A DNA stretch of 64,000 nucleotides from Microbacterium sp. LWO12-1.2 (GTDB taxonomy: Bacteria; Actinomycetota; Actinomycetes; Actinomycetales; Microbacteriaceae), in assembly GCF_040675875.1 (NCBI RefSeq), contig NZ_JBEGII010000001.1:2976001-3040000 (forward strand). Direction: 5' to 3'. This document shows positions 24,019 through 40,004 of the stretch, piece by piece. The notes under the pieces are model-generated. The model did no database searches. It was not told where the DNA came from and saw only the letters and a list, made by a program, of their open reading frames with translations. The translations under genes and the position numbers were made by a program. The first letter of the stretch is position 1. Every line of letters starts with the position of its first letter.

Positions 24019-25203
24019 TCAGCCGAGCGGCGTCCACCCCGAAGGGCGTTCGAGCCCGATACCCGTGCCCTCCACCCGTTCGGGTGCCGAGTACGAGATC
24101 GCCAGCTCCGGCGTACTCATGGCCTCGCCGCTCCAGCCCGAGCGCATGGCCGCGCCGAGGATGCCGGTCGTGAGCTGCGTGCGTTCGATCGGGATCTGCG
24201 GCCGACCGTCGCGGATCAGGTGCTCCGCCTGCCGCACCAGGAAAGTGAAATGCAGGTGGGGTGCTCCGGGCAACCACATCTGGCAGACGAAGGACTCGTC
24301 CGCGCCGCGGGCAGCGAACGCGAACTGTCGCACCTCGTCTTCGCAGATGACCACGTGGGCGATGAGCCCGTCGGCGTAACGCACCTCGATGACTCCCGCG
24401 ACCGTGAGGATCGCCTGCTCACGCTGCGATGGGGTCAGGTCCAGACTGTCGAAGGCCGCAGCGAGCAGACCGCGGTCGATCCGCCCCTCGGCGATCGCCG
24501 CCCGGGACGCCTCACCGTTGAGCGCGATGACCTGCGCGACACCGGTCTCACCGCCGGCACGTCGCTCGACATGCGCCTGCAGTCCTTCCAGACAGTGGAA
24601 CCCGTAGCGCTCCAGCGGCCCCCAGCCCAGCAGCACCGCGGCATCCATCGCCGCACCCTGCGGCCACTCCGCCGCCGCGGGCACCCGCCACGAGAGAGGG
24701 ATGGTGGAGCCGGCGCCGTAGCCGACACCGAGTCGATGCGCGGTCGCCGCCATCTCGTTGGCATCCCGCGCGGAGTAGGCCAGGCCTTTGTCGTTGAAGA
24801 TCGGCACGTAGCGCCCGGCGGCCGTCATCGCCGCGACCGCCGAGTCGAAGAAGCGACGTCGCGGGTACACCTGCTGCCCGTGCTCGTTCAGCTCGTAGTC
24901 GCCGTGCTCGCCGATGATGATCACACCGTCGACGCCGAGGCCGCCCGCGCCGTCGACGAGCGCCTCGCCGATCGACAGCGCGCGGCGGATGCCGTGACGC
25001 TCGAGGAACGGGAGACCGAGGTCGTCGCCCTGCACGCACCCGATCTGTTCGAGGTACATCGACACGACTTCGAGCTCGGTCTGCTCGTCGACCCCGTCGA
25101 GCGTCCAACCCTCGACGATCGGGGGCACGATCACGTCGGTGTGGCATCCCTCGAACCACACCGTCGCCAGCACGGCGACGCGCATCTTCGCAGGTCTCGT
25201 CAT
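24019..25203 (-). CDS. Conserved protein of unknown function in a sugar-catabolism locus
   Basis: 394 aa, not recognised with confidence. There is no signal peptide. The N-terminus MRVAVLATVWFEGCHTDVIVPP suggests a Rossmann-like alpha/beta domain; GVIIIGEHGDYELNEHGQQ and YPRRRFFDSAVAA are strongly patterned and may be conserved motifs. Several His, Asp and Glu residues near HGDYE could bind a metal. RBS AGGAGG lies 7 nt before the ATG at 25203. It is divergent from a RidA gene and convergent with the mutarotase. An enzyme of sugar or carboxylate catabolism is plausible from context only. Confidence 0.6.
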   Translation of the reverse strand: MTRPAKMRVAVLATVWFEGCHTDVIVPPIVEGWTLDGVDEQTELEVVSMYLEQIGCVQGDDLGLPFLERHGIRRALSIGEALVDGAGGLGVDGVIIIGEHGDYELNEHGQQVYPRRRFFDSAVAAMTAAGRYVPIFNDKGLAYSARDANEMAATAHRLGVGYGAGSTIPLSWRVPAAAEWPQGAAMDAAVLLGWGPLERYGFHCLEGLQAHVERRAGGETGVAQVIALNGEASRAAIAEGRIDRGLLAAAFDSLDLTPSQREQAILTVAGVIEVRYADGLIAHVVICEDEVRQFAFAARGADESFVCQMWLPGAPHLHFTFLVRQAEHLIRDGRPQIPIERTQLTTGILGAAMRSGWSGEAMSTPELAISYSAPERVEGTGIGLERPSGWTPLG

Positions 25204-26061: not shown

Positions 26062-26137
26062 GGGGGATCATTCCTTCTTTCGGAGGGCCCGAACCGCGCA
26101 CGCGCGCGGAGCGGGTCGAATGTAGCGCGATTGCGGG

Positions 26138-26176
26138 CATAATTGGTGGACAGTGCGGAAACCATCGTGATTCCGC
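26138..26176 (+). promoter_or_regulatory. Promoter box and operator before the cyclase-like regulator
   Basis: CATAAT at 26138-26143 is a near-consensus -10. Just downstream, GCGGAA (26155-26160) and TTCCGC (26171-26176) form an inverted repeat with 10-nt spacing, ideally placed for autoregulation. No good -35 was seen. Confidence 0.55.
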
Positions 26177-26223
26177 CTCGCAGCGATAACGGATGACTCG
26201 CGCGAAATCGACGGGAGACGAGA

Positions 26224-27546
26224 ATGATCGGACTCATCGGGCCTGCCGACTCGGTGGCGCACGCGCTGGCCGTCGCGACCACCCATCAGTGGGAGGGCCG
26301 GATCATCGCCCGCCCCTACCGGCACGCCGACGAGGCTGCGGCTGTCGCCCGCGAACTCGATCAGACCTGTCAGGTGCTGCTGTTCACGGGCCGGGTGCCG
26401 TACGAGCTCATCCGCGGCATCGATCTGAACGCCGAGCTGCAGTACATCTCCCACTCCGGTGCCGACCTCTACCGCTGCATCGCGCACATCCTCTTGACCC
26501 ACGACGGACGGATGCCCACGGCGACCGTCGACTCGATCGACCGGGAGACCGCCGAGAGCACGTTCGAGGACCTCGACCTTCCGGCGCCGGCGTGCGCACC
26601 GCTGCCCAGCGACTCCGACGGCCCCATCCCCGCCGCGGACGAGCTCGTGCAGTTCCATCTCGACCAGCTCGCCTCCGGAGCGGCGGAGATCGCTCTGACG
26701 TGCCTCGCCGAGGTGAACGAGCGGCTCACCGAGAAGGGCGTGCCCGTCGAGCGCATCGTGCACACCAAGGCCACGCTGCTGGACGCCCTGCACCGTGCCG
26801 TCCTGGCCGATGAGCTGCACCGCACGCGCTCCGCCCAGCCGGCCGTCGCGATCTTCCGCGTCGACGTCGACAGCCGCGGCGGACTCGACGTGTACGACCG
26901 CGAGCAGCGACGGCTGCGCGCCCAGAGCGCACTCCTGCACCTCGCCCGTAAGAACGGAGGCCGGCTGAGCACGCTGGAGCGCGACCTCTACGCCATCACG
27001 ACGAACCGCGGCGCGATCGAGATGGCGCTGGAGCGCCGCCGGAACGGCCACTCCTCGCTGCTCGACGTTCCGAACTTCGATGCTCCGACGACCGTCGGAG
27101 TCGGCATCGGCGACACCTACTCGCTCGCCGAGGAGAACGCCCGCTCGGCGATGCGCGTTGACGGCGACGCCGTGACGGTGATGTTCCCCGACGGCCGCAC
27201 CGACTCGGGCCGCGGCGCTGCTCCGGCCCACCTCGGCGCGCAGGACGTGACCGACGGCTATGTGCGTCTGGGAGAGCGGCTGAGCATCGGCGCCCTCGCC
27301 GCACAGCGTCTGGTGCGGGCGCTGGGCAAGGTCGACACCGAAGCCGTCACCGCGCGCGAGCTCGGCGAGGCGTACGGCGTGCAGACCCGGTCGGCGCGTC
27401 GACTGCTGTCGACGCTGATCGACGCGGGCTTCGCCGAGGAGATCGGCATCCGCGCGCGCCCGCAGGCAGGCCGTCCGCAGACTCTGTGCCGCGTCGAACT
27501 GCGCCGAATCCTGGAAGAGCTCGACCAGCCGGCACCTGCCGCCTGA
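26224..27546 (+). CDS. Cyclase-like sensor/regulator with C-terminal winged helix (paralogue 1)
   Basis: 440 aa. Residues about 1-200 are a conserved sensor region (MIGLIGPADSVAHALAVA, YRHADEAAAVARELD, ISHSGADLYRCIAHI). About 200-340 resembles a GGDEF/GTP cyclohydrolase III-like cyclase core: KNGGRLSTLERDLYAITTN and VGVGIGDTYSLAEENARSAM. About 345-440 is a winged helix (ARELGEAYGVQTRSARRLLS, then a GRPQTLCRV wing). A second copy without the winged helix lies at 34967. I know no characterised protein of this exact architecture. RBS GGGAG, with a palindrome upstream. Likely a ligand-controlled transcription factor for adjacent catabolic genes. Confidence 0.7.
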   Translation: MIGLIGPADSVAHALAVATTHQWEGRIIARPYRHADEAAAVARELDQTCQVLLFTGRVPYELIRGIDLNAELQYISHSGADLYRCIAHILLTHDGRMPTATVDSIDRETAESTFEDLDLPAPACAPLPSDSDGPIPAADELVQFHLDQLASGAAEIALTCLAEVNERLTEKGVPVERIVHTKATLLDALHRAVLADELHRTRSAQPAVAIFRVDVDSRGGLDVYDREQRRLRAQSALLHLARKNGGRLSTLERDLYAITTNRGAIEMALERRRNGHSSLLDVPNFDAPTTVGVGIGDTYSLAEENARSAMRVDGDAVTVMFPDGRTDSGRGAAPAHLGAQDVTDGYVRLGERLSIGALAAQRLVRALGKVDTEAVTARELGEAYGVQTRSARRLLSTLIDAGFAEEIGIRARPQAGRPQTLCRVELRRILEELDQPAPAA

Positions 27547-27556
27547 TCTCTCACCG

Positions 27557-28360
27557 TCAGTCCGTTCGCGCGGCGTCGCCGGTGAAGACACGATCGTAGA
27601 GAAGCGTTGAGAGCCCGGCATCCACCGTGACCGTCTGCCCGGCGATGGCCCAGGCATCCGGTGAGAGCAGGAAGCTCACGACCCGACCGACATCGGCGGG
27701 GCCGACCGTGCGGTCGATGACCTGCTGCTCGGACGCGTGTCGGCGGATCCATCCGATCCCGTCGTCGCCCAGGCCATAGCTGTCGACGAACCGCTCGTCG
27801 AGCACCGCACCGGGTGCGACCGCATTGCAGCGGATGCCGTGCGTGCCGAGCTCGGTGGACATGCCCCGAGTCAGCCCCTCCACCGCACCCTTGGTCGCAG
27901 CGTAGATCGCGTAGCCGCTCTGCGTGTGCTGCCCGTGGACGGACGAGATGTTCACGATGACGCCACCCCCACCGCGCTCGATCCGATGCTGCGCAAAGGC
28001 ACGGGACGCCAGCCAGAGGCCGCGGATGTTCAACGAGAAGAGCCGGTCGAAGTCGGCTTCCTCGGCGAGATGCGCAGGCAGGGAGAGCCCGACGCCGGCG
28101 TTGTTCACCAGAGCATCGACCTCGCCGTAGTGTGCGATCGCGACATCGAGCACATGCGTGACACCCTCGGCCGTGCGCAGATCGGCCGCCACCGCGATCG
28201 CATCCGGGTAGCGCTCGGCCGCCGCGTGCACCGCCCGCTCATCGACATCGTTCAGCACCAGACGTGCGCCCCGTTCGGCGAGCGCATCGCACACACCAGA
28301 TCCGACGCCGTGCCCGCCGGCACCTGTGACGATGACGACCTGCGCCCGCTGCTTCTCCAC
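27557..28360 (-). CDS. SDR-family oxidoreductase
   Basis: 267 aa. Cofactor loop TGAGGHGVGSGV is slightly longer than usual; LVNNAGVG and the catalytic Ser (NISSVHG) and YAIYAATKGAVEG (Tyr/Lys) are present, followed by the typical TVTVDAGLST ending. RBS GGAG precedes the ATG. Positioned between the cyclase-like regulator (stops 11 bp apart) and the ABC transporter genes, so it probably oxidises the transported sugar or a derivative. Confidence 0.83.
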   Translation of the reverse strand: MEKQRAQVVIVTGAGGHGVGSGVCDALAERGARLVLNDVDERAVHAAAERYPDAIAVAADLRTAEGVTHVLDVAIAHYGEVDALVNNAGVGLSLPAHLAEEADFDRLFSLNIRGLWLASRAFAQHRIERGGGGVIVNISSVHGQHTQSGYAIYAATKGAVEGLTRGMSTELGTHGIRCNAVAPGAVLDERFVDSYGLGDDGIGWIRRHASEQQVIDRTVGPADVGRVVSFLLSPDAWAIAGQTVTVDAGLSTLLYDRVFTGDAARTD

Positions 28361-28440
28361 CGCTTCTCCTTCGTCCCGCTCGATTCATGATGGCGTGGGG
28401 ACACCGGCTGACGCCGATGCCCCCACACCGTACTCCGGGC

Positions 28441-29751
28441 TCAGCCCTGGAGCTCGTACCATTCCTTCTGCTTCTGCACGAGCTGCGAGATGAAGTCCTT
28501 CGGCGCGAGCTCGCCGAGCACGAGCTTCTGCGCCAGCGGGTCGAAGACCTCCTGGCCCCACGCCGGGACCGCAGCTCCGGTTCCGTCGTTCGCGGCGACC
28601 TTCACCACGTCGGGATTCGCGAGCGCTGCCTGCACGCTGGCGAGCGAGTCGACCACCGTCGCGTCGGTACGGGCCGGGACGGCGATCTGGCCGATCTCGT
28701 CCTGGTAGCCCTTCTGCAGGAAGAAGGCCATGAACTTCTTGGCGTTGTCGACGCCGGCGGCGCCTTCGATCGCCGAGAAGCCGATCGTGTCGATCTGCAT
28801 CGGCTGGATGTCGCCCTTCTCGAGGGCCGGGAACGGGAACGAACTGTACTCGAAGCCCTCGGCCGCGTACGGCGCGACCTCGGCGGGGAGCCAGGAACCG
28901 TTCAGGATGAGGGCAGCGTCATTGTTCGCCCACTTCTGCTGGATCGCGGGGAACTTGCTCGCCGCGAAGCCGTCGGCGAAGGCTCCCGTCCCCGCCAGTT
29001 CTGCGGCGGCCTCAGCCGCTGCGAGGAACTCCGGGGCTTCGAAGGCCTTGCCGGTCTCGTCCTGCGCAGCCTCGAGCAGCCCGCCCTTCCCGGTCGCGCT
29101 GACGGCGAGGTTGATGTACCAGGCACTCGCATACGGCTGGATGGTGCCGTCGAGAGCCACGGAGCCCTTGCCGGTCTCGCCGACCAGATCCATGAACTCC
29201 GACCAGGTGGTCGGGGCACCATCGGCCCAGTCCGGGTGCTCCGCCGCGTTGTACCAGATGTCGAAGTTCGAGGTCATCTCGAACGGCAGGCAGTAGGTGG
29301 CCCCGTCGAACTGACCGGTGGCGAGCGCATCGGCGGAGAGCGTCTCCTCCACCGTCTTCCCCTCACCGGGGACCTCCTCGCCGAGAACGGAGGAGACGTC
29401 GGCCGCCTTGCCTGTCGCCACGAGCGACGAACCGACGCCCGCGCACCCGAAATCGACCATGTCGACGGTGGGGTTGGACGAGGTGAGCAGCGGCGTGAGG
29501 ACGTTGGGGAGGTCACGCCCCTGCCAGGTCACATCGACCTTGATGCCGGTCTCTTCGGTGAAGGCGTCGAAGGCCTCCTTCATGATGTCGGAGGTCGGCT
29601 CACCCTCCGTCCAATAGCTCATGTAACGGAGAGTGTCGTTCTTCTCCCCGTCGCCGCCGCCGTTTCCGGCATCGGTGGAACATCCGGTGATGACGAGTGC
29701 CGCTGTGGCGAAGACGCCGACGCTGGCGAGCACACGAGTGGTGTGAGTCAC
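28441..29751 (-). CDS. Carbohydrate ABC transporter substrate-binding lipoprotein
   Basis: 436-aa family 1 extracellular solute-binding protein. The lipobox is ALVITGCS, giving lipid attachment at the Cys. The mature part begins NDTLRYMSYWTEGEPTSDI and shows the usual two-lobe pattern. GTG start with AAGGAAA 5 nt upstream; a longer in-frame ATG upstream lacks support. It is third in the minus-strand order permease, permease, binding protein. Sugar specificity cannot be read; neighbours suggest an acidic sugar, sugar lactone or deoxy-sugar. Confidence 0.92.
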   Translation of the reverse strand: MTHTTRVLASVGVFATAALVITGCSTDAGNGGGDGEKNDTLRYMSYWTEGEPTSDIMKEAFDAFTEETGIKVDVTWQGRDLPNVLTPLLTSSNPTVDMVDFGCAGVGSSLVATGKAADVSSVLGEEVPGEGKTVEETLSADALATGQFDGATYCLPFEMTSNFDIWYNAAEHPDWADGAPTTWSEFMDLVGETGKGSVALDGTIQPYASAWYINLAVSATGKGGLLEAAQDETGKAFEAPEFLAAAEAAAELAGTGAFADGFAASKFPAIQQKWANNDAALILNGSWLPAEVAPYAAEGFEYSSFPFPALEKGDIQPMQIDTIGFSAIEGAAGVDNAKKFMAFFLQKGYQDEIGQIAVPARTDATVVDSLASVQAALANPDVVKVAANDGTGAAVPAWGQEVFDPLAQKLVLGELAPKDFISQLVQKQKEWYELQG

Positions 29752-29798
29752 GTGATTTCCTTTCGGTAGAACTTTCGGTGGGTCGGGTACGGCTCGGA

Positions 29799-30695
29799 TC
29801 ATCTGCTGTATCCGGCCGCGATCCCGTCGACGAGACGGGATCCCAGCCAGATGTAGAGCAGAAGCAGGGGAAGGATGATGAGGGCGATGCCCGCGAAGAG
29901 CACCTCCCAGCGGGCGCCCGTGTACTGCATGGTCTTCATGAACTGCATCAGGGCGACCGAGATGGTGCTCTCGTGCCGCAGGAACACCAGGGCGAAGAAC
30001 GTCTCACCCCAGAATCCGATGGCCTGCAGCACGATCACTGTGATGAGTCCGGAGCGGGCGAGCGGGAACATGATGCGCCAGAACGTCATGCCCGGCTTCA
30101 GGCCGTCCAGAGCCGCCGCCTCTTCGAGGTCGCGGGGCAGCGACCGGAAGAACCCGGTGAGCAGGAAGACCGTGAACGGCAGGGAGAGCCCGGTGTAGAT
30201 CACGAACAGGCCGAAGATCGAGTCGATCAGACCGATCCGGTCGAAAGCGACGAACAGCGGGATGAAGATCGCCTGCACGGGCACGCCGAGGCCGAGGATG
30301 AACAGGATGGTGATCGGGCCGGAGCTGGGGCGGCGGAATCGCGCCAAGGCATACGCCGCCGGAGCGCCGAGAGCCACGCTGGCGAGGCTGCAGGTGACCA
30401 CGAGGACCACCGAGTTCAGGATGCCGGCCCCGAGGTTCGCGGAGTTCCAGGCTGCGACGTAGTTCTCCCACTGCGGAGAGGCCGGCAGGCCCCACGGCTC
30501 GAAGATCAGTTCGCGCGTGGTCTTGAAGGAGCTCAGCAGGATCCACAGCAGCACGAACACGTCGAACACGGCGAGCGCCCAGGCGAACGGGATCAGGATG
30601 ACCTTGACTCCGACCGAGCGCATCTCGCGCACCCTTCGGCTCTGGCGCGTGTGGTCCGACATGCGGACGGAGGTGTCAGTACTCAATGTCGTCAC
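29799..30695 (-). CDS. Carbohydrate ABC transporter permease, MalG type
   Basis: 298 aa, six predicted membrane helices. The EAA loop DLEEAAALDGLKPGMTFWRI is present, as is the family opening ILIPFAWALAVFDVFVLLW. It overlaps the upstream permease by 20 bp. No ATPase gene is in the operon, so a shared MsiK-like ATPase elsewhere is likely. Confidence 0.92.
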   Translation of the reverse strand: MTTLSTDTSVRMSDHTRQSRRVREMRSVGVKVILIPFAWALAVFDVFVLLWILLSSFKTTRELIFEPWGLPASPQWENYVAAWNSANLGAGILNSVVLVVTCSLASVALGAPAAYALARFRRPSSGPITILFILGLGVPVQAIFIPLFVAFDRIGLIDSIFGLFVIYTGLSLPFTVFLLTGFFRSLPRDLEEAAALDGLKPGMTFWRIMFPLARSGLITVIVLQAIGFWGETFFALVFLRHESTISVALMQFMKTMQYTGARWEVLFAGIALIILPLLLLYIWLGSRLVDGIAAGYSR

Positions 30696-31638
30696 TCCTC
30701 ATGACACGGCGGGCAAGGATCGTCAGCGCGAGCGCCAGGAGCAGCATCACGACACCGCAGGCGGCTGCCGCCCCGAACTTCGCGATGCCGTTCGTCGGGA
30801 ACGCCTGGGCGTAGGAGTAGATCGCGATATTCCAGATGTCGGTGCTGGGCAGGGTGCCGGCCGACGAGGAGAACAGCAGCAGGAACTCGAAGGTCTTGAG
30901 CGCTCCGACGCACCACAGCACGGCCGTCACGCTCACCAGATCCCACATCAGCGGAAGGGTGACGTAGCGGAACCTCTGGAAGGCGCTGGCACCCGCGAGG
31001 TCGGCGACCTCGTAGTACTCCTTCGGGATCCGGTCGGCGGCTGCCAGGAGGATCACCGTGTAGGTGCCGACGCTCAGCCAGGCGAGTCCCAGCATGATCG
31101 TCGGGAAGATCAGCTGCGACCCCAGCCAGGCAGGAGGTTCGGCGATACCCAGCGTCTTGAGGAAGCTGTTCACCAGACCGTCGGGGTTGAACAGGAACCC
31201 CCAGAGCACCGAGATCACGATGCCGGGGATCAGCGTGGGGAAGAAGATGATCGAACGGATCGCCTTGCGACCGAAGGTGTTCTGAAGAACGAGGGTCAGC
31301 GCGAAGGCGATCGCGTAGACGATGATGCCGACACCGACGACGATGAGGAAGGTGTTCCACATCGAGCTGATGAAGATCGGATTGCGGAACATGCGCACGT
31401 AGTTGTCGAAGCCGACGAACTCCATCGGGCCGGTGCCCGCCCACTGCGTGAAACTCGTGTAGATGCTGAACAGCGTCGGTACGACGAGCACCGCCGCGAA
31501 GACGATCAGCGCCGGTGCGACGAACAGTCGGTAGCTGCGCCGACGCGTCCGGTCGAATGCCGATTCGCCCGGCGCGATCTTGCGCTGCGGGCGACCTTTC
31601 GCGTCGGTCGGTGTGACGAGTGTCGCTGTCGCGGACAT
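30676..31638 (-). CDS. Carbohydrate ABC transporter permease, MalF type
   Basis: 320 aa, with six membrane helices and the EAA loop KEYYEVADLAGASAFQRFRY. A cytoplasmic basic stretch (RTRRRSYR) precedes the first helix. The ATG at 31638 has a strong RBS AGGAGG; the longer frame upstream includes the promoter region and is rejected. First gene of the transporter operon, controlled by the promoter/operator region at 31697-31756. Confidence 0.92.
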   Translation of the reverse strand: MSATATLVTPTDAKGRPQRKIAPGESAFDRTRRRSYRLFVAPALIVFAAVLVVPTLFSIYTSFTQWAGTGPMEFVGFDNYVRMFRNPIFISSMWNTFLIVVGVGIIVYAIAFALTLVLQNTFGRKAIRSIIFFPTLIPGIVISVLWGFLFNPDGLVNSFLKTLGIAEPPAWLGSQLIFPTIMLGLAWLSVGTYTVILLAAADRIPKEYYEVADLAGASAFQRFRYVTLPLMWDLVSVTAVLWCVGALKTFEFLLLFSSSAGTLPSTDIWNIAIYSYAQAFPTNGIAKFGAAAACGVVMLLLALALTILARRVMRSDDIEY

Positions 31639-31696
31639 CGGGCCTCCTTCTCTTTTCCTGCGAGCACTCGGCAGCTGCCTCGGATCGACGGGTGAT

Positions 31697-31756
31697 CGAT
31701 TCAGCAGCGAATCGTTCGAGTTGTCAAACGCTATCGCACTCGTTGCCACCCGTCAA
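31697..31756 (-). promoter_or_regulatory. ABC transporter promoter with palindromic operator
   Basis: On the minus strand, TTGACG (31756-31751), 17 nt, TAGCGT (31733-31728). About 13 bp downstream of the -10 is CGATTC-AGCAGC-GAATCG (31697-31714), an 18-bp palindrome well placed to block transcription, LacI style. Confidence 0.7.
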
Positions 31757-31893
31757 CGGTCAAAGCGAACGCAATGACCTGACGTCTGACAGCGAGGAAG
31801 AGAACGGCAGATTCCTTGGTTTTTCAAGGCAGAATCAGGCGGGACAACTTCGTACTCGCGCTCAGCCCTCTGAGGCTCTACGCTGTGATCTAA

Positions 31894-31923
31894 CGAAGTG
31901 CGTTCGATATGACGAACACTTCG
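31894..31923. promoter_or_regulatory. Large inverted repeat upstream of the epimerase operon
   Basis: CGAAGTG(C)GTTCG and CGAAC-ACTTCG flank ATATGA; arms match over 11-12 bp with one bulged base. It lies 113 bp before the start at 32036. A dimeric regulator site is likely; no regulator is assigned. Confidence 0.7.
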
Positions 31924-32035
31924 GACGCAATGACTACTTCGACGCATCGTTGCGTGGAGAGGATGAGCCGATGCAGGACTGGACGGCCGTGACGGCGGGA
32001 CCATACCCGCGCGACAGCGCGGGGGAGGCGACGAC

Positions 32036-32764
32036 ATGGCGCGCGTGACCGTGGTGGGCGGAGCCGGTGACGTGGGCGCCCTCGTACTCCCGCTGCTCTC
32101 CCGGCACCACACCGTGCGCGTGGCAGATCTGCGCCCTGCGAACGGGTGGCACGGCGACTACGTCTCGGCGGATGTGGCCGACCCCGCCTCACTGCGCACC
32201 GCCTGCGAGGGATCCGACACGCTGATCTTCCTGGCGATGGGCACCAAACGCGACTGGGACAGCGCCGAATGGGCGCGCAATCAGTTCGCAGTGAACGTCG
32301 AAGGGCTCTACTCCGCTCTGCGCGCAGCCGCAGAGGTCGGCGTTCGCCGCTTCGTGCATGCCAGCACGGCGTCCATCTTCGCCGACTACCGCGCCCCCCT
32401 CCTTCCCGCGACGGGCGATGCGGTCGATGCCTACGGCCTGAGCAAGACGGCTGCGGAACTCGTGTGCGCTGCCGCCACACGTGAACACGACCTGTCCGGC
32501 ATCTCGCTGCGCCTGGTCGGCCCGCTCGCCGACGAGGACTGGCAGGACTACGACGACCCGCACAGCCGCGATGTGATGACCGCGGGCACCGACGTGGCTC
32601 AGGCCTTCCTCGCAGCGCTCGAGGCTCCCACCACGGGGTACCGCACCTGCATGATCTCGGGTGATCACACCGGGGACCACATCGATCTGGCCGACGCACG
32701 GGAGCTGCTGGGCTGGCGCCCGCTCGCCCGTCGCGAAGCCACCACACCGAGGGAGAACGCATGA
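32036..32764 (+). CDS. NAD(P)-dependent sugar epimerase/dehydrogenase (extended SDR)
   Basis: 242 aa. The Rossmann motif VVGGAGDVGALVLPLL and the later VHASTASIFAD and Tyr/Lys of AYGLSKTAAEL mark an extended SDR, close in style to uronate dehydrogenases and small NAD epimerases. RBS GGGAGG lies 7 nt before the ATG. First of four overlapping genes running to the XRE regulator. A uronate or sugar-acid dehydrogenase fits the operon, but an epimerase is also possible. Confidence 0.8.
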   Translation: MARVTVVGGAGDVGALVLPLLSRHHTVRVADLRPANGWHGDYVSADVADPASLRTACEGSDTLIFLAMGTKRDWDSAEWARNQFAVNVEGLYSALRAAAEVGVRRFVHASTASIFADYRAPLLPATGDAVDAYGLSKTAAELVCAAATREHDLSGISLRLVGPLADEDWQDYDDPHSRDVMTAGTDVAQAFLAALEAPTTGYRTCMISGDHTGDHIDLADARELLGWRPLARREATTPRENA

Positions 32765-33546
32765 GCATTCCGCTCGCCGACCGCACCACCGTCGAAGCCG
32801 CCGAGGCGATCGAGCGGGCTGCCCTCGCGATTCTTCCGCTCGGCGCGATCGAGCAGCACGGCCCGCATCTCGCACTGCGCACCGATATCTCGATCGCGAC
32901 GGCACTGGCCTCCCGCGTCGCCGACGCGCTGGGCGACACGGCCCTGCTGCTCCCCCCGATGCCCTACGGACTCTCCGAGCACCACACGGCGTTCGCTGGC
33001 ACCGTGACGCTGCGACCCGAGACCCTCATCCGGCTCATCCTCGACGTCGTCGAGTCGATGGCCGCGCAGGGCATCGACCGCGTGATCATCGTGAACGGTC
33101 ACGGCGGCAACATGGATGCGATCCGGCTGGCCGCCCGCCAATCCCGCCGCGACCTGGGCTCACGGGTGGCGCACGTGATGTGGGCGCAGGTCGCCGGCGA
33201 TGCGATCGCGGAGGAGATGGCCGGACGCGGCATGCACAATCACGCCTGCGAGATCGAGACGTCGCTGGCGATGGAGCTGTGCCCGGAGATCGTCCACGAA
33301 CCGCTTCCCGGCGCCTGGCTGGAACCGGAGTTCGCACCGCACGCGGCACCGCCGACCGCCCGGATCGACGTACCCCTGTGGTTCGACGAGCTCACGCCCA
33401 CCGGAGCGCTGGGCGACCCCTCGCGGGCGACACCCGAGCGCGGGCGCCGACTGGCCGACCTCGTGGTCGAACGCACCGTGGCCTTCGCGCGCGGGTTCGC
33501 GGCCCCGTCTTTCCCTCTCGCCGCACCGCCGGAGTTCGACGCTTGA
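32761..33546 (+). CDS. Creatininase-family amidohydrolase/lactonase
   Basis: 261 aa. Metal-binding motifs are standard for the family: LGAIEQHGPHLALRTD, NGHGGNMDAIR, and HNHACEIETSLAM. These enzymes hydrolyse cyclic amides or lactone-like substrates with two metals. It overlaps the previous gene by 4 bp (ATGA) and the next by 4 bp (TTGA). In a sugar-acid operon, a lactonase or cyclic-amide hydrolase role is more likely than creatinine breakdown. Confidence 0.87.
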   Translation: MSIPLADRTTVEAAEAIERAALAILPLGAIEQHGPHLALRTDISIATALASRVADALGDTALLLPPMPYGLSEHHTAFAGTVTLRPETLIRLILDVVESMAAQGIDRVIIVNGHGGNMDAIRLAARQSRRDLGSRVAHVMWAQVAGDAIAEEMAGRGMHNHACEIETSLAMELCPEIVHEPLPGAWLEPEFAPHAAPPTARIDVPLWFDELTPTGALGDPSRATPERGRRLADLVVERTVAFARGFAAPSFPLAAPPEFDA

Positions 33547-34376
33547 CCCCCTCGCACGCACGGGCCGATGCGCACATCCACCTCTTCCGCGACGGGTTCG
33601 TCGAAGGCGGGCGCGACGAGCTCGCCTGGTACGAGGAGCTCCGCGCGACAGCCGGCGTGACCGCGGCGCTCGTGGTCGGGTACGAGGGCAGCCCGCGCTT
33701 CGCGGGCAACAACGCGCATATCCTCGCGCTCTCCCGGCGACTCGACTGGGTGCGGCCGACCGCGTTCGTCGAAGTCGCAGCCCCGCCCTCCCCCGCCGCG
33801 CTGCGGAAGATGCGCGAGGACGGATTCACCGGATGGAGCATCTACCTCCCCGAAGAGGGGCCTTCGCTGTCGGACTGGTCATCCGAGCAGCTCGCCGCAC
33901 TGGCCGGCGGCATCCTGAGCGTGAATGCCACTCCCTCGGCGCTGGATCGTGCGCGCACCGCGTTCGCGGCGATCACCGAGACGCGCGTGCTGGTGAGCCA
34001 CCTGGGGCTCCCCGGTAGCACCGCGCGCGATGTCGATACCGCCACGGTGCGCGATCTGCTCGGCCCCCTGCTGCCCCTCGCTCCGCTCGACCACATCGCC
34101 GTCAAGCTCTCGGGGCTCTATGCGATCGATCCCCGCTACCCGCATCTCGGGGCGCGGACGACCATGGATGCAGTGCTCGATGCCTTCGGCGCCGACCGCA
34201 TCGCCTGGGGATCGGACTTCTCCCCCGTCCTCTCGGAGGTCGCTCCCGACGACGCGATGGTCGCGCCCGAGTGGATCCTGACCGACCTCTCTCCCTCCGA
34301 GACGGATGCGATCCTGGGCGGTACACTGCTCAGGCATCTGGCACACGTTGACTCGATCGGGGGGACCGACGCATGA
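33543..34376 (+). CDS. Amidohydrolase-2 family metal-dependent hydrolase, sugar lactonase candidate
   Basis: 277 aa. The N-terminal metal motif is ADAHIHLFRDG; later HLGLPGS and ASP in GSDFSPV complete a typical amidohydrolase-2 barrel. Members of this group include L-fuconolactone hydrolases (COG3618) and pyrone-carboxylate hydrolases. TTG start, chosen because its TTGA overlaps the creatininase stop. Downstream it overlaps the XRE gene by 4 bp. Hydrolysis of a sugar lactone fits the mutarotase, dehydrogenase and dehydratase genes in the region. Confidence 0.78.
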   Translation: MTPSHARADAHIHLFRDGFVEGGRDELAWYEELRATAGVTAALVVGYEGSPRFAGNNAHILALSRRLDWVRPTAFVEVAAPPSPAALRKMREDGFTGWSIYLPEEGPSLSDWSSEQLAALAGGILSVNATPSALDRARTAFAAITETRVLVSHLGLPGSTARDVDTATVRDLLGPLLPLAPLDHIAVKLSGLYAIDPRYPHLGARTTMDAVLDAFGADRIAWGSDFSPVLSEVAPDDAMVAPEWILTDLSPSETDAILGGTLLRHLAHVDSIGGTDA

Positions 34377-34951
34377 GCGCAGGTTCGACCGGGTGGTCGG
34401 AGCCGCCACTTGCCGGCAACATCCGCCGCTGGCGCGAGCGGCGAGGGCTGAGTCTGTCCGCCCTGGCGCGCGACGCGGAGATCTCCAAGTCCACGGTCTC
34501 CGAGCTCGAGCGCGGCATCGGCAATCCCTCCCTCGACACGCTCGGCGCGATCGCCCGCACGCTCCGCATCCCGATCGCCTTCCTCTTCAACGAAGCCCAG
34601 GGGCCCGCAGACGTCGACATCCGCCGGCTGTCGGATGCCCCCGTGCTCTCGCACGTCGAAGGCGAGTCGATCGCGCAGCTGCTCAGCGGATGGACCGCAC
34701 GCGGCGAGGCCGAGCTCTCCGTCGTCACCATCGCCGCAGACGGGCGGATCGATGCGCGCGGAGACGGCAGCGGAGCTGTCAAGCGCATCGTGTGTGTGGA
34801 AGGCGTCGTAGAGGTGGGCACGACAGCCCGCTCCGATCTGCTCATGCAGGGCGATCTCATCACCTTCCCGAGCGATCAGTCCCACTTCCTGCGCAGCGTG
34901 AACGGTGCGACACGGGTCCTCGTGATCGAGCAGTACCCGCCGTCCGCCTGA
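34373..34951 (+). CDS. XRE-family regulator with C-terminal cupin domain
   Basis: 192 aa. The helix-turn-helix is RGLSLSALARDAEISKSTVSELERGIGNPSL split across residues 24-55; the C-terminal half is a beta-barrel cupin (MQGDLITFPSDQSHFLRSV) that usually binds a small molecule. It ends the plus-strand operon and converges with the cyclase-like paralogue (stops 15 bp apart). Likely a local regulator of the operon, perhaps acting on the inverted repeat at 31894-31923. Confidence 0.87.
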   Translation: MSAGSTGWSEPPLAGNIRRWRERRGLSLSALARDAEISKSTVSELERGIGNPSLDTLGAIARTLRIPIAFLFNEAQGPADVDIRRLSDAPVLSHVEGESIAQLLSGWTARGEAELSVVTIAADGRIDARGDGSGAVKRIVCVEGVVEVGTTARSDLLMQGDLITFPSDQSHFLRSVNGATRVLVIEQYPPSA

Positions 34952-34966
34952 TCCGTTCCTTCGCGA

Positions 34967-35986
34967 TCAGGGCTGGCCCTGCACGGCCTCGTCGATCGCG
35001 ACCATCCGCCCATCCGGGAAGCAGACCTGCGTCCGGCCCGAGCGCTGCGCACCGTCGAGTGCCGTGCGGGCGAGGGTCTCTGCATGCTCGAAGGTGTTGG
35101 CGACGCCGACGCCGACGTGCAGCACCAGGCCGTCCACCGCGATCTCCATCGGCCAGGCCTCACCGAACCCGCCGTCGAGATCGTCATCGAGCGTGAGACG
35201 ACTCATCGCCACCGAGAACAGCCCGCCCTCGACGGCCGTGAGGCGACCGCCGTTGCGCCGCGCGACCTCCAGCAGCTCGCGGTGCACCCGCATCCGCACC
35301 ACTTCACGTTCGAATACGTCGAGCTCCGCCAGCCGTGCACGGTCGGGGGCGAACAGCGCCACCGCCAGCTGCTCCTCGCGCGAGCGGATGAGGTCATGCG
35401 AGAGCAGCGCCCGCTGCAGTGCATCAGCCATGGTGCGGGCGGTGTGCTCGATGCGCCAGACGCGCACGCCCTCGGCGAGCAGCACCGCGTGCACCTCGGC
35501 GAGGCAGGTGAGCACGGCGTCGGCCCGACCGTCGGCGAGCGCCGCGCGGTGGAAGGCGATGATCTCGGCCACATCGGCCGGCACAGCGTGGTCCTCGGGC
35601 GATCCGAGCGGATGCGCCGAAGGAGTCGGCAGCCCCAGGTCGGCGAAGGCGCTGAGGACGGTCGCCTCGTCGATCGAGTCCACCGTGACTCGGGGCATCG
35701 CGCCGCCGCACTCGATCAGGACCTGGGCGATGCAGCGGTACAGGTCGGCGCCCGAGTGCGAGACGAACTGCGGCTCAGCCTCGGTCAGCTCCGAACCCGC
35801 CATCATGTACGGCGCCTGCCCCGTGAACAGCACCACCGTGCACGAGGGGTCCAGTTCCCTGGCCAGATCGGAGGCCTCGTCCGCGTGTCGGTAGACACCG
35901 GGCCGGAGCATGTCCGCGAAGCCGGCTTCGGCCGCGATCTGCGTCGCCAGAGCGACGGAGTCAGCTGGTCCGACGATTCCGATCAC
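34967..35986 (-). CDS. Cyclase-like sensor protein without DNA-binding domain (paralogue 2)
   Basis: 339 aa, clearly homologous to residues 1-340 of the regulator at 26224: MIGIVGPADSVALATQIA, VYRHADEASDLARELD, VSHSGADLYRCIAQVL, RNGGRLTAVEGGLFSVAMS, and VGVGVANTFEHAETLARTAL are all shared. It ends where the winged helix would start, at a clean stop, so it is not an obvious frameshift. GTG start with GGAGG and good spacing. It is the last gene of a minus-strand operon with TIM-barrel isomerase, M20 amidohydrolase, E1 alpha and E1 beta. It may be a sensor or antagonist of the full-length paralogue. Confidence 0.7.
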   Translation of the reverse strand: MIGIVGPADSVALATQIAAEAGFADMLRPGVYRHADEASDLARELDPSCTVVLFTGQAPYMMAGSELTEAEPQFVSHSGADLYRCIAQVLIECGGAMPRVTVDSIDEATVLSAFADLGLPTPSAHPLGSPEDHAVPADVAEIIAFHRAALADGRADAVLTCLAEVHAVLLAEGVRVWRIEHTARTMADALQRALLSHDLIRSREEQLAVALFAPDRARLAELDVFEREVVRMRVHRELLEVARRNGGRLTAVEGGLFSVAMSRLTLDDDLDGGFGEAWPMEIAVDGLVLHVGVGVANTFEHAETLARTALDGAQRSGRTQVCFPDGRMVAIDEAVQGQP

Positions 35987-36018
35987 TGTGCCGCCTCCAT
36001 CCGTTGTGATGCCTCTGC

Positions 36019-37005
36019 TCAGCGAACCACACGACGCACTGCCGACACCACATCGGCAGCCGAAGGAATCACCACGGCCTGCAGCGCGGGGGCCGCAGGA
36101 GTGGGCACGTCGGGTGCCCCGACCCGGGCAATCGGCGCGCGCAGATCGCTGAAGCACTCCTCGGCCGCGCGCGCGGCGATCTCCGCACCGAAGCCGCCGG
36201 TGAGGTTGGCCTCGTGCGCGATCACCAGGCGTCCGGTCTTGCGTACGGATGCCGCGATGAGGTCGAAGTCGAGAGGCGCGAGCCAGCGCGGGTCGACCAC
36301 CTCGACGTCGATGCCGTCCGCGGCGAGCTCTTCCGCCGCCTCCAGCGCGGCTGCCGCCATCCGCGACCAGGCGACGATCGTGACGTCTGCTCCTTCGCGG
36401 GTGATGCGTCCTCCACCGATCGGCTCGACGGGGGCATCGAGACGCACGTCCCCCTTCGTCGGGTAGAGCATGCGCGCCTCTGCCACCACCACCGGGTCGT
36501 CTGAGACGATCGCGGCGCGCAGCATCTGGTACGCGTCATCCGCTGTCGACGGCACCGCGAGGCGCAGGCCGGGAGTATGGGCGATGTACGCCTCGATCGA
36601 GTGCGAGTGCTGGGCGCACGACCCCGATGAGTAGCCCTGCTGCGTGCGGATGACGAGCGGGGCCCCGTACGTGCCTCGGCTGACGTAGTGCGTGTTCGCG
36701 ATCTGGTTCACGAGCTGATCCATCGCGACGAACATGAAGTCCGCGTACATGATCTCGGCGATCGGACGCAGACCCGTCATGGCCGCACCGAGCGCCATGC
36801 CCAGGAACGCGGTCTCGGAGATGGGGGTGTCGAAGATCCGGCTGTCGCCGAAGTCCCGGTGCAGATTCTTGGTGGCACCGAACGGACCGCCGGGCACCGC
36901 GACGTCTTCGCCGAAGATGACGGTGTCGTCGAGCGCTTCGAGCGACCAGCGCAGCCCGTGCTGGACCGCTTGGATGTAGCTGAGGGTCTGGGTGGCGTCA
37001 GGCAT
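36019..37005 (-). CDS. 2-oxoacid/acetoin dehydrogenase E1 beta subunit
   Basis: 328 aa transketolase-like pyrimidine-binding and C-terminal domains: ALDDTVIFGEDVAVPGG, TPISETAFLGMALGAAMTG, RTQQGYSSGSCAQHSHS, and VIAHEANLTGGFGAEI. It partners the alpha subunit, which it overlaps by 8 bp (36998-37005); start MPDATQT follows that overlap. There is no E2 or E3 nearby, so it may use a shared E2/E3 or a nonstandard acceptor. Substrate is unknown: pyruvate, acetoin or a branched 2-oxoacid are candidates. Confidence 0.88.
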   Translation of the reverse strand: MPDATQTLSYIQAVQHGLRWSLEALDDTVIFGEDVAVPGGPFGATKNLHRDFGDSRIFDTPISETAFLGMALGAAMTGLRPIAEIMYADFMFVAMDQLVNQIANTHYVSRGTYGAPLVIRTQQGYSSGSCAQHSHSIEAYIAHTPGLRLAVPSTADDAYQMLRAAIVSDDPVVVAEARMLYPTKGDVRLDAPVEPIGGGRITREGADVTIVAWSRMAAAALEAAEELAADGIDVEVVDPRWLAPLDFDLIAASVRKTGRLVIAHEANLTGGFGAEIAARAAEECFSDLRAPIARVGAPDVPTPAAPALQAVVIPSAADVVSAVRRVVR

Positions 37006-37945
37006 AGACGTGGTCCTTGGCGGTGTTCGGGTCGGGCAGTTCGGTGGCGCGCGCCGCAGCGACGGCGTGCTCGATCTCGGCGGTGACCTCAGCATCGATC
37101 GCGTCGAGCTCGGCGAGCAGCGTGGCGTCGGCGGCGGAGCGGATGCGGTGCAGCGGCTCGTCCAACGCCGCCTCAGCCACCTCTCCGCGTGGCCGGTAGT
37201 GCTGCGCATCGCCGCTGTGATGGCCCACCAGGCGCTGGGTCATCGCCTCGATCAGGGTCGGCCCCTCGCCGCGGCGAGCGCGCTCCACCGCGTCGGCGGC
37301 AGCAGCCGCGACCACGGCGGGGTCGTTGCCGTCGATCGTCACGCCGGGGATGCCGTATCCCTCCGCGCGGATCGCGAGCTGATCGATCTTCGTCATGTCC
37401 TTGATGCGGACCATCTCGGAGTAGATGTTGTTCTCGACCACGAGGACCATCGGAAGCGTCAGGGCGGCGGCGAGGTTCAGCGCCTCGTGCACGGCGCCCT
37501 GGTTGGTCGCTCCATCGCCGATCGCGACCACAGACACCTGGCCCTGGCCGTGCCGCTGCGCCGACAGTGCCGCCCCTGCAGCGATGGGGACGCCGGCACC
37601 GACGATCGAGTTCTCACCCAGGAAGTTGATGCTCGCATCGCTGAAGTAGGGAGAACCGGCGCGCCCGCCGTTCACTCCCCCGGAGCGGGCCATGACCTCG
37701 GCGAACAGCCCGGTCAGGTCGCTGCCGCGGGAGATCGCCCACCCATGACCGCGGTAGGTCGCGGTGACGTAGTCGTCGGGGCGCAGGACGCTCGCCACGC
37801 CGACCGCGATCGCCTCCTGCCCGTTGGTGAGATGCATGGAACCCGGCACCTCGCCGCCCGCCTTCAGATCCATCAGTCGATCCTCGAAGGCGCGGATCCG
37901 CCGCATCTCGCGATACATGTGCACGATGTCGCCCACAGCGCTCAC
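36998..37945 (-). CDS. 2-oxoacid/acetoin dehydrogenase E1 alpha subunit
   Basis: 315 aa. The thiamine diphosphate motif GDGATNQGAVHEALNLAAAL to ENNIYSE is intact; YRGHGWAISRG and LTNGQEAIAVG match E1 alpha. Its GTG start overlaps the M20 stop by 4 bp (GTGA). Paired with E1 beta. The missing E2/E3 and the M20/TIM-barrel context argue for a specialised substrate. Confidence 0.88.
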   Translation of the reverse strand: MSAVGDIVHMYREMRRIRAFEDRLMDLKAGGEVPGSMHLTNGQEAIAVGVASVLRPDDYVTATYRGHGWAISRGSDLTGLFAEVMARSGGVNGGRAGSPYFSDASINFLGENSIVGAGVPIAAGAALSAQRHGQGQVSVVAIGDGATNQGAVHEALNLAAALTLPMVLVVENNIYSEMVRIKDMTKIDQLAIRAEGYGIPGVTIDGNDPAVVAAAAADAVERARRGEGPTLIEAMTQRLVGHHSGDAQHYRPRGEVAEAALDEPLHRIRSAADATLLAELDAIDAEVTAEIEHAVAAARATELPDPNTAKDHVYA

Positions 37946-39132
37946 CGATTCCTCTCGTCTGTCGACAGCACCGCACGGGTGAGTCGTTCCATCATGTCCA
38001 CACCGGTCGTCAGGCACCGCTCATCGATGTCGAAGTCGCCGGAGTGCAGTGCGCGCGTGCCGGATCGCCCCGGCTCGGCGACACCGAGTTTCAGATACAG
38101 CCCCGGCCACCGCTCGGCCAGCAGGGCGAAGTCGTCGGTGGTGAGGGGTGGCTTGGGGAGATCGACGAGATCGCAGACCTCCGGGCCGACCTCGCGGGCC
38201 AGCTCGACCAGGGCGTGCGCATTGACCAGCGACGGCATCTCGTCGGCCCAGGTGAGCTCGATCGTGACATCGTGGGCGCGGCCGACGCCCTCGCACAGCT
38301 GCGCGATCGTCTGCTTGCAGGTGGCGCGCACCGCCGGGTCGTGGGTGCGCAGGGTGCCGGTGATGGCCACCTCTTCCGGAACCTGGCTCTGCGATGCGCC
38401 ACCGGAGATCGTGCCGACGTTCAAGGCCACCATCTCGTCGGGGTTGCGGCGTCGGGCGATCACCGCGTGCAGCGATGTGACCAGGTCGCTCATCGCGAGC
38501 AGCGCGTCGCGTCCGAGACCGGGGGTGGCGGCGTGCGAGGCCCGGCCGCGCGCGACCATCCGGAACGCATCCTTCGCCGCCATCGCGATCTTCGGATCGA
38601 CGCCCACGGAACCGGCTTCCAGGTTCGGCCAGCAGTGAAGCCCGAGCACCGCGTCGTACGAGTCCTGCAGTGCCCCGCTCTCGAGCACGCCCCTGGCGCC
38701 GGACGGCTGCCCGAACGGGATCTCCTCGGCCGGCTGGAACAGCACCTCGACGCTGCCGCGCTCGGGGCGGCGGGCGGCGAGGCGGCGCAGCACCCCCACC
38801 ATCACGGTCATGTGCGCATCGTGGCCGCAGGCGTGCGAGACACCGGGGGTCGTCGATGCGTAGGGCAGGTCGTTGACCTCCTGCACCGGATAGGCGTCCA
38901 TGTCGGCGCGCAGCAGCACGCGAGGTCCCGGCGCGTCCCCGCCGATGCGGGCGATGATGCCGGTGCCGGCGACACCCGTGGTGAGCGAATCCACCCAGCC
39001 GTCCAGCAGCGACTCGATCTCGGCGCCGGTGCGGTGCTCGGTGAACCGGAGCTCGGCGAGCGAGTGCAGCCGGCGGCGCACACCGCGCAGGTCCTCGACT
39101 TCGTCGACAGCTGTACGTTCCTGCACGGTCAC
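37942..39132 (-). CDS. M20-family amidohydrolase (hippurate hydrolase-like)
   Basis: 396 aa. Metal ligands: Cys-His in HACGHDAHM, Asp/Glu in QPAEEIPFG, and His in ALHSGDFDID. The wording matches M20D amidohydrolases, which release an acyl group from an amino acid or amine. It overlaps the TIM-barrel gene by 4 bp upstream and E1 alpha by 4 bp downstream. It probably provides a free acid or amine to the pathway. Confidence 0.88.
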   Translation of the reverse strand: MTVQERTAVDEVEDLRGVRRRLHSLAELRFTEHRTGAEIESLLDGWVDSLTTGVAGTGIIARIGGDAPGPRVLLRADMDAYPVQEVNDLPYASTTPGVSHACGHDAHMTVMVGVLRRLAARRPERGSVEVLFQPAEEIPFGQPSGARGVLESGALQDSYDAVLGLHCWPNLEAGSVGVDPKIAMAAKDAFRMVARGRASHAATPGLGRDALLAMSDLVTSLHAVIARRRNPDEMVALNVGTISGGASQSQVPEEVAITGTLRTHDPAVRATCKQTIAQLCEGVGRAHDVTIELTWADEMPSLVNAHALVELAREVGPEVCDLVDLPKPPLTTDDFALLAERWPGLYLKLGVAEPGRSGTRALHSGDFDIDERCLTTGVDMMERLTRAVLSTDERNR

Positions 39133-40004
39133 AGCAGCTCGATCCCGGCGGCGAGCGCGCGCTCGCGCACGAACCGCACACCCTCGGCGCTGCGCTCGGG
39201 AGCGAGATGCTCCACGATCAGGGCCGAGCCGTCGGGAAGGCGGCGCACCTGCTCGAAGAACGCGTCGTAATCCAGCACGCCTTCGCCGGGCTGCACCTCG
39301 AGGATGCGGCAGACGAACTCATCCGTGACGGCGACGTCCTTCAGGTGGCAGGACGCTCCGTAGCGGGGTCCGACGACGTCGATCATGTGTTTCATGCGCG
39401 CGGCGTTGTCGAAGACGGCGACCGCGCTGTCGAGCAGGTTCACCGGGTCGAAGTTCGCGGTGATCACGGGTGAGTCCACGGCGTCGAGGATCTCTCGGAT
39501 GGCTTCGGGCGAGCGCGTCGCCGACAGCTGGTGGCACTCGATCGTGTAGCTGATGCCTGCGTCTTCGATGTGCGGGGCGATGCCGCGCAGGCCGTCGATC
39601 AGGTCGGCCTTCGCGCGCTCGGAGTAGTTGTCGGCGTGCGGCGCGTAGAAGTTCGGCTGCCAGTCGTCGCGGCTGGTCCCCGCGCCGGAGCTGATCATGG
39701 TCGCCCCCAGGGCGACGGCGGTGGGTATCGCCGCGAGCACACGGCGATGGGCCTCCGCTCTGACCTCGGGGGAGGCGTGCACGAAGTTCGCATTGACGCC
39801 GGCCATCTGGGCGACGTGGATTCCGCCGTCGGCGAGGCGGGCGCGCACACCGGGCGCTTCGTCGAGGACGGCTGCGGGCCCCGCCGCGAAGTGCACCGAG
39901 AGGGATCGGATGCCCATCTCCGCCCAGCGGGCGATCAGGGGCACGGTGAATCCCGCCGGCTCGTCGGGGATATCGCCGTTCGCCAGGCCCAGATACATCG
40001 CCAT
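39129..40004 (-). CDS. Sugar phosphate isomerase/epimerase family protein (xylose isomerase-like TIM barrel)
   Basis: 291 aa. Barrel features: FTVPLIARWAEMGIRSLSVHF, SYTIECHQLSATRSPEA, ITANFDPVNLLDS (Asn/Asp metal ligands) and CHLKDVAVTDEF; C-terminal LIVEHL has the last ligand Glu. RBS GGAG sits 7 nt before ATG. First gene of a five-gene operon controlled by the promoter/operator at 40014-40075. The substrate, a keto-sugar or dehydro-inositol-type compound, is not known. Confidence 0.83.
   Translation of the reverse strand: MAMYLGLANGDIPDEPAGFTVPLIARWAEMGIRSLSVHFAAGPAAVLDEAPGVRARLADGGIHVAQMAGVNANFVHASPEVRAEAHRRVLAAIPTAVALGATMISSGAGTSRDDWQPNFYAPHADNYSERAKADLIDGLRGIAPHIEDAGISYTIECHQLSATRSPEAIREILDAVDSPVITANFDPVNLLDSAVAVFDNAARMKHMIDVVGPRYGASCHLKDVAVTDEFVCRILEVQPGEGVLDYDAFFEQVRRLPDGSALIVEHLAPERSAEGVRFVRERALAAGIELL

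Follow-up and report, generated by a model that had tools for sequence, protein, structure and literature searches.

Why would a catabolic locus of Microbacterium sp. LWO12-1.2 hold two related sensor proteins when only one of them ends in a winged helix? The locus lies in a 64,000-nucleotide stretch of contig NZ_JBEGII010000001.1 (positions 2,976,001 to 3,040,000; hereafter the window, whose own numbering is used throughout). Here the long form is encoded on the plus strand (26224-27546, 440 residues) and the short form on the minus strand (34967-35986, with a GTG start at 35986, a stop at 34967 and 339 residues). The two are 45% identical across 331 residues (241 bits, E 6e-81) and were the sole two copies in a whole-genome search at E up to 0.001. 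A preliminary description of this DNA had listed motifs common to both proteins, and all but the last are present in each (GPADSV, YRHADEA, SHSGADLYRCIA, NGGRL and VGVG); the last, given as AE-N-AR, fits the long form (AEENAR), whereas the short form reads AETLAR. The observation of a long and a short sensor in one locus is confirmed, and the interpretation given with it is partly supported, with the antagonist role of the short form still putative.

AlphaFold2 models of the long and short forms (predicted local distance difference test scores of 90.5 and 88.8, respectively; the short-form model was compared structurally with VIA-align) divide the shared part into two domains, with the fold of the PrpR sensory domain at residues 1-200 and a palm fold of the GTP cyclohydrolase III/GGDEF type at residues 205-324. 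The suggestion that the shared 340 residues form a cyclase-like block, open to a test by structure prediction, thus holds for the palm, but residues 1-200 make up a sensory domain of their own, of the PrpR type. Only the long form continues into a winged helix, as had been described; it is modelled within residues 340-434, gives weak helix-turn-helix (HTH) matches within 362-415 in Pfam and NCBIfam, and in Foldseek matches TFE-alpha and MarR-type domains. Profile searches of both proteins in Pfam and NCBIfam matched no model over the shared part, in agreement with the claim that no described family has this layout; the Pfam tables ran to E up to 1, with HMMER filters that discard most weak matches. 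PrpR_N, which we take to be the Pfam model for the PrpR sensory domain, matched neither window protein nor any of 16 others scanned singly, and was absent among the best 25 of 59 (A1) and the best 25 of 43 (A5) families listed. Among solved structures, an 87-row profile matched five chains, all over positions 348-439 and with no link to PrpR by sequence, and the short form alone as query gave no match. There was also no Pfam match in the window proteins to an AAA+ sigma-54 activation domain, and the region in question is modelled as the palm.

The short form belongs to an old clade. Protein searches, each scoring the approximately 8000 candidates sharing most words, gave 94 relatives for the long form and 17 for the short form. 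The short forms make up six clusters at 90% that contain 27 sequences (P0073, P0078, P0080, P0081, P0084, the last from Microbacterium resistens, and P0101); with the copies of the window and of a second genome of the genus, G184, they give eight short rows, every one of 339 residues. In an IQ-TREE phylogeny of the sensor and palm columns (35 rows), these eight group as a single clade (100/100) that lies within the long forms and is adjoined by P0012 (91/85), P0010 (96/90) and P0011 (87/68); the tree shows a single change of state. This computation shows that the winged helix was lost once, on the branch that also holds P0010-P0012. The short gene is rejected as a duplicate of the window's own long gene: forcing the short forms into the window's long clade was 34 log units worse (approximately unbiased test, p-AU 0.0113, for a constrained group chosen after a first tree that had warned of long branches among distant rows). 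The two proteins had been presented as each other's paralogs; the short clade has its origin among other long forms, so they are not mutual duplicates. The longest contig given for a long form, P0007, and for a short form, P0073, measures 33702 bases in both cases, a hint that the two may lie together.

The loss left a clean end, as the preliminary description had it. A six-frame profile scan of 32001-36400 found no winged-helix remnant near the short gene (the long gene, as control, scored 124.7 bits; the best score elsewhere was 1.0, in G184). The stop of the short gene lies 15 bases from a convergent XRE-cupin gene, which ends so near that there is no room for a decayed winged helix there. 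The frame is intact, GGAGG precedes the start, and the ratio of nonsynonymous to synonymous substitution rates (dN/dS) between the window's genome and G184 is 0.046, compared with 0.061 for the long form and 0.047 for E1-beta. Selection on the short form is purifying. A recent truncation with a decayed winged helix, the outcome that would have undone the earlier interpretation, is ruled out by the six-frame scan together with dN/dS.

The changes in the short form are concentrated in the palm. Measured against the positions that 13 nearby long forms conserve, the short clade (counted here with P0101 set aside) keeps 61/67 in the sensor and 34/46 in the palm. Of its 18 changes at these positions, 12 therefore fall in the palm, where the segment 251-287 keeps just 4 of 10. 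Two glycines that are nearly invariant in the 92 core long forms (119 rows minus 20 distant and 7 short rows) are replaced in all seven short forms counted: G263 (86/92) by leucine and G296 (90/92) by alanine. By our own reading of its sequence, P0101 lacks the first of these glycines and keeps the second. Such changes may reflect release from signalling to the winged helix, followed by new constraint.

Both forms are rare in the genus. Among the 366 genomes searched, the window's genome and G184 each hold a long and a short form, so that the two co-occur wherever either is found, and two other genomes hold only distant members. Beyond the genus, in draws that each include the window's genome, matches spanning the sensor were found in 4/398 genomes from the taxonomic family and 13/396 from the order; most matches of the full-length profile used for these two draws covered the C-terminal part alone (from position 283), for which 72 of 76 and 125 of 138 genomes, respectively, were dropped. 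A sensor-and-palm profile (E up to 1e-8) matched in 63/394 genomes drawn from the class, for a protein family whose sensor Pfam and NCBIfam do not model. Of the 68 distinct sensor-bearing frames in the fetched loci, 66 have a winged helix; the two exceptions are the short genes of the window and G184. Paired members, adjacent or a few kilobases apart, were also seen in other actinobacteria (49-2241 with 6962-8371 in L121; 6278-7687 with 13818-15278 in L124) and in another actinobacterial genome (71251-72162 with 72486-73385 in G1200:C16). In family f35, a member stands beside an EPSP-synthase-like gene (L121, L122, L127 and L128), unlike the catabolic settings, and in some of these loci SAICAR synthetase-like or aminotransferase genes are close by (Pfam names from L128 only). 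Immediately after members in Micromonospora (L003, 9556-11196) and in f14 (L119, 9017-10786) come large proteins for which Pfam gave no match at E up to 0.001.

As had been described, the M20/E1 run ends with the short gene, whose strand, which had not been given, is minus; the order is TIM barrel, M20, E1-alpha, E1-beta, short gene (Table 1). In six of eight Micromonospora loci (the remaining two end early at a contig end), E1-alpha and E1-beta genes whose products are 65-69% and 74-77% identical to those of the window lie near long members, in the order E1-alpha, E1-beta, short-chain dehydrogenase/reductase (SDR), family member. In G584, E1-beta (70% identical), SDR and a long member are consecutive, and in the window no SDR gene stands between E1-beta and the short gene. 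M20 genes 47-51% identical to that of the window lie beside long members in L011, L012 and L013, loci that showed no E1 gene, and L014 has an E1 pair at a distance of about 6 kb from the family member. The short form thus occupies the place held by a full-length regulator in some other genera. This is a likeness of place and not proof of descent, because the Micromonospora copies belong to neither of the window clades. Other genes of the locus encode a member of the sugar-acid dehydratase superfamily, an SDR, an Amidohydro_2 protein, a creatininase and an FAH protein that scores below the cut-off of the didehydro-deoxy-rhamnonate hydrolase model. By our own reading, which also supplies the names of mutarotase and sugar ATP-binding cassette (ABC) transporter genes, this content fits non-phosphorylative breakdown of a deoxy sugar or sugar acid. 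The window further encodes, at 24019-25203 on the minus strand, a protein of 394 residues that is 91% identical in G184 and for which Pfam and NCBIfam gave no match at E up to 0.001.

Table 1. Features of the two regulator genes and their surroundings, in window coordinates.
Feature	Position	Strand	Basis or remark
Dyad GCGGAA-N10-TTCCGC upstream of long gene, weak candidate autoregulatory operator	26155..26176	.	
Long form, PrpR-type sensory domain (fold), residues 1-200	26224..26823	+	Fold match
Long form, GTP cyclohydrolase III/GGDEF-type palm domain, residues 205-330	26836..27213	+	
Long form, linker helix and C-terminal winged helix, residues 340-440	27241..27543	+	Pfam HTH matches (weak, all below cut-off), Foldseek, DSSP of model
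Convergent XRE-cupin gene	34373..34951	+	XRE-type matches below cut-off; cupin name is our own reading
Short form, palm domain with altered 251-287 segment and no winged helix, residues 205-339 and stop	34967..35374	-	
Short form, sensory domain as in long form, residues 1-200	35387..35986	-	GTG start at 35986
E1-beta, directly upstream of short gene	36019..36993	-	Pfam Transketolase_C/Transket_pyr
E1-alpha (called from 38017; overlaps M20 call)	36998..38017	-	Pfam E1_dh
M20 amidohydrolase	37942..39132	-	Pfam Peptidase_M20; TIGR01891 above cut-off
Xylose-isomerase-like TIM barrel, first gene of run	39129..40004	-	Pfam AP_endonuc_2

We hypothesize that the pair combines a ligand-responsive regulator with a DNA-blind relative that acts as its feedback antagonist, by analogy with TrlR and CerN (discussed below), a reading that we put forward tentatively and at somewhat short of an even chance. 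The long protein would be a cytoplasmic one-component transcription factor whose PrpR-type domain binds a small catabolite of the locus, probably a sugar acid or keto acid, whose largely degenerate cyclase palm dimerises and relays the signal, and whose C-terminal winged helix binds DNA. The short protein would have arisen from a full-length member of this regulator family that lost its winged helix and then had its palm remodelled. If the run to which it belongs is induced as one operon, as we infer, the short protein would most likely pair with the long one through the sensor or the palm, and the resulting dimers, unable to grip DNA, would provide ligand-tuned negative feedback once the operon is on. 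The arrangement suggests that the DNA-blind relative may be a brake built into the switch. A bolder version is possible but doubtful, namely that an undescribed regulator family has bred a dedicated DNA-blind inhibitor, made by the regulated operon and reading the same catabolite, with a long-form palm that may also read a nucleotide; if true, one metabolite would set both switch and brake.

Several points weigh against such feedback. The window's genome and G184 are close relatives that share the locus, so the co-residence of long and short forms counts as one observation and not two. Cross-pairing is not assured, because the partners are 45% identical and come from separate clades, and the palm, a likely dimer surface, is the most changed part of the short form. 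The nearest relatives of the short form on the tree are P0010-P0012 and not the E1-linked copies of Micromonospora and G584. Finally, no repeated operator was found in the locus. The dyad upstream of the long gene lies in a stretch (26106-26240) that is 97.8% identical to G184 over 135 bases, compared with 91% for the gene itself; counting itself, it is matched eight times in the window, where 8.3 matches are expected, and thus shows no excess repetition. The 18-mers common to nine upstream stretches included nothing convincing as a shared operator. In Micromonospora, SDR coding sequence fills the stretch before the regulator and the dyads lie inside it; one recurs in three of eight loci (L004, L007 and L008), and none is like that of the window. 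Promoter and terminator scans of the sequence gave 0 versus 0.5 and 2 versus 2.1 in shuffles. Between the ABC permease and epimerase genes (31870-31990), a block conserved in G184 holds GTTCG-N6-CGAAC, perhaps the operator of another regulator.

Among the alternatives, an unlikely one that deserves serious consideration is that the short protein no longer takes part in transcription control and works on a metabolic partner instead; it might, for instance, bind a ligand and regulate the E1 dehydrogenase, or buffer the ligand for that enzyme. Its gene comes last after E1-alpha and an equally constrained E1-beta, and palm residues that hardly vary in DNA-binding members have been replaced and fixed anew, as though the palm no longer had to signal to DNA. 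The full-length, DNA-binding form is, however, found near the same E1 genes in Micromonospora and G584, so the position of the short gene can be explained by an old link, and we know of no E1-regulating protein of this fold. It is rather improbable that the short protein is instead a positive partner, contributing to a heterodimer with one DNA arm or serving as a sensor subunit needed by the long form. The well-kept sensor half and the presence of both forms in both genomes would suit such a role, but no short partner was seen in the loci fetched from other genera, which does not prove that those regulators act alone.

The palm of the long form could also be an active nucleotide enzyme or nucleotide sensor, with that of the short form dead, which we consider very unlikely. 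The long form of the window has acids at 214, 216 and 254, where the distant member P0096 has DVD and GSDDF, although equating them with catalytic positions is our own sequence reading and not a structural superposition. P0096 (22.8) and another distant member, P0104 (21.4), pass the Pfam GCH_III cut-off of 21.3; neither window protein matches that model, and P0096 itself meets 2qv6 by sequence only at E 2. In the alignment of core long forms, D214 is present in 23/92, D216 in 10/92 and D254 in 12/92, and all seven short forms counted keep D214, so these acids neither mark long forms nor are conserved; with D214 and D254 so infrequent, the palm looks degenerate in most family members, although some may be active. 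It is hardly credible that the short gene has lost its function and is decaying: the stem branch of its clade is long (0.45, against 0.064 for the end branch of the nearest long relative), but the length shared by 8/8 short forms, the low dN/dS, the GGAGG before the start and the intact frame largely contradict it.

The feedback reading places the locus among systems that it resembles in part. In residues 1-200 the window proteins share the fold of PrpR, the activator of propionate catabolism (sensory domain 2pju), and of the NtrC-family 2q5c, and like PrpR they belong to a catabolic locus; where PrpR and NtrC-type proteins have an AAA+ domain, the long form has a palm and a winged helix. With GTP cyclohydrolase III (2qv6) they share the palm fold, but the family has one palm only, with unconserved acids, fused to a sensor and a winged helix. 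A literature search, with most subscription journals outside its scope, returned no paper on PrpR_N with GGDEF or on GTP cyclohydrolase III with a winged helix, and nothing on this layout in titles and abstract openings.

In domain order the closest parallel is the PucR/CdaR type, represented by the actinobacterial MabR (Rv2242), for which excerpts of the published account describe a sensor, a GGDEF-like domain without catalytic motifs and a C-terminal HTH, with dimer interfaces in both halves (PMC11617747). The long form has the same order of sensor, palm-like domain and C-terminal HTH, and the short form the same without the HTH, but the MabR sensor is globin-like, according to the same excerpts, and that of the window proteins PrpR-type. 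The Rv2242 fragment 9f80 matches the long-form model at a Foldseek E of 9.8e-4 (template modelling score 0.17 by query), and the PucR GGDEF-like and C-terminal HTH models, under the Pfam names used in those excerpts, are absent from the window proteins' tables at E up to 1.

For the partnership itself, the parallels are LuxR-type. In the portions of the sources available, TrlR is said to lack the DNA-binding domain of TraR, to be inducible by the opine mannopine and to be able to form inactive dimers with TraR (PMC3907764), and CerN, without an HTH, to counteract CerM by interacting with it under autoinducer (PMC11655674). As in those pairs, a relative without a DNA-binding domain stands beside a full-length one in the same cell; those pairs are backed by experiment, as far as these portions go, whereas the window pair, of a different fold family, is known from sequence and models. 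The short form is a clean natural case of a transcription factor that lost its DNA-binding domain and was retained long after, and the split into sensor and palm makes its dimer partner and ligand directly testable. Loss of the DNA-binding domain is known for LuxR proteins, and its occurrence in a second, unrelated fold would suggest a general route.

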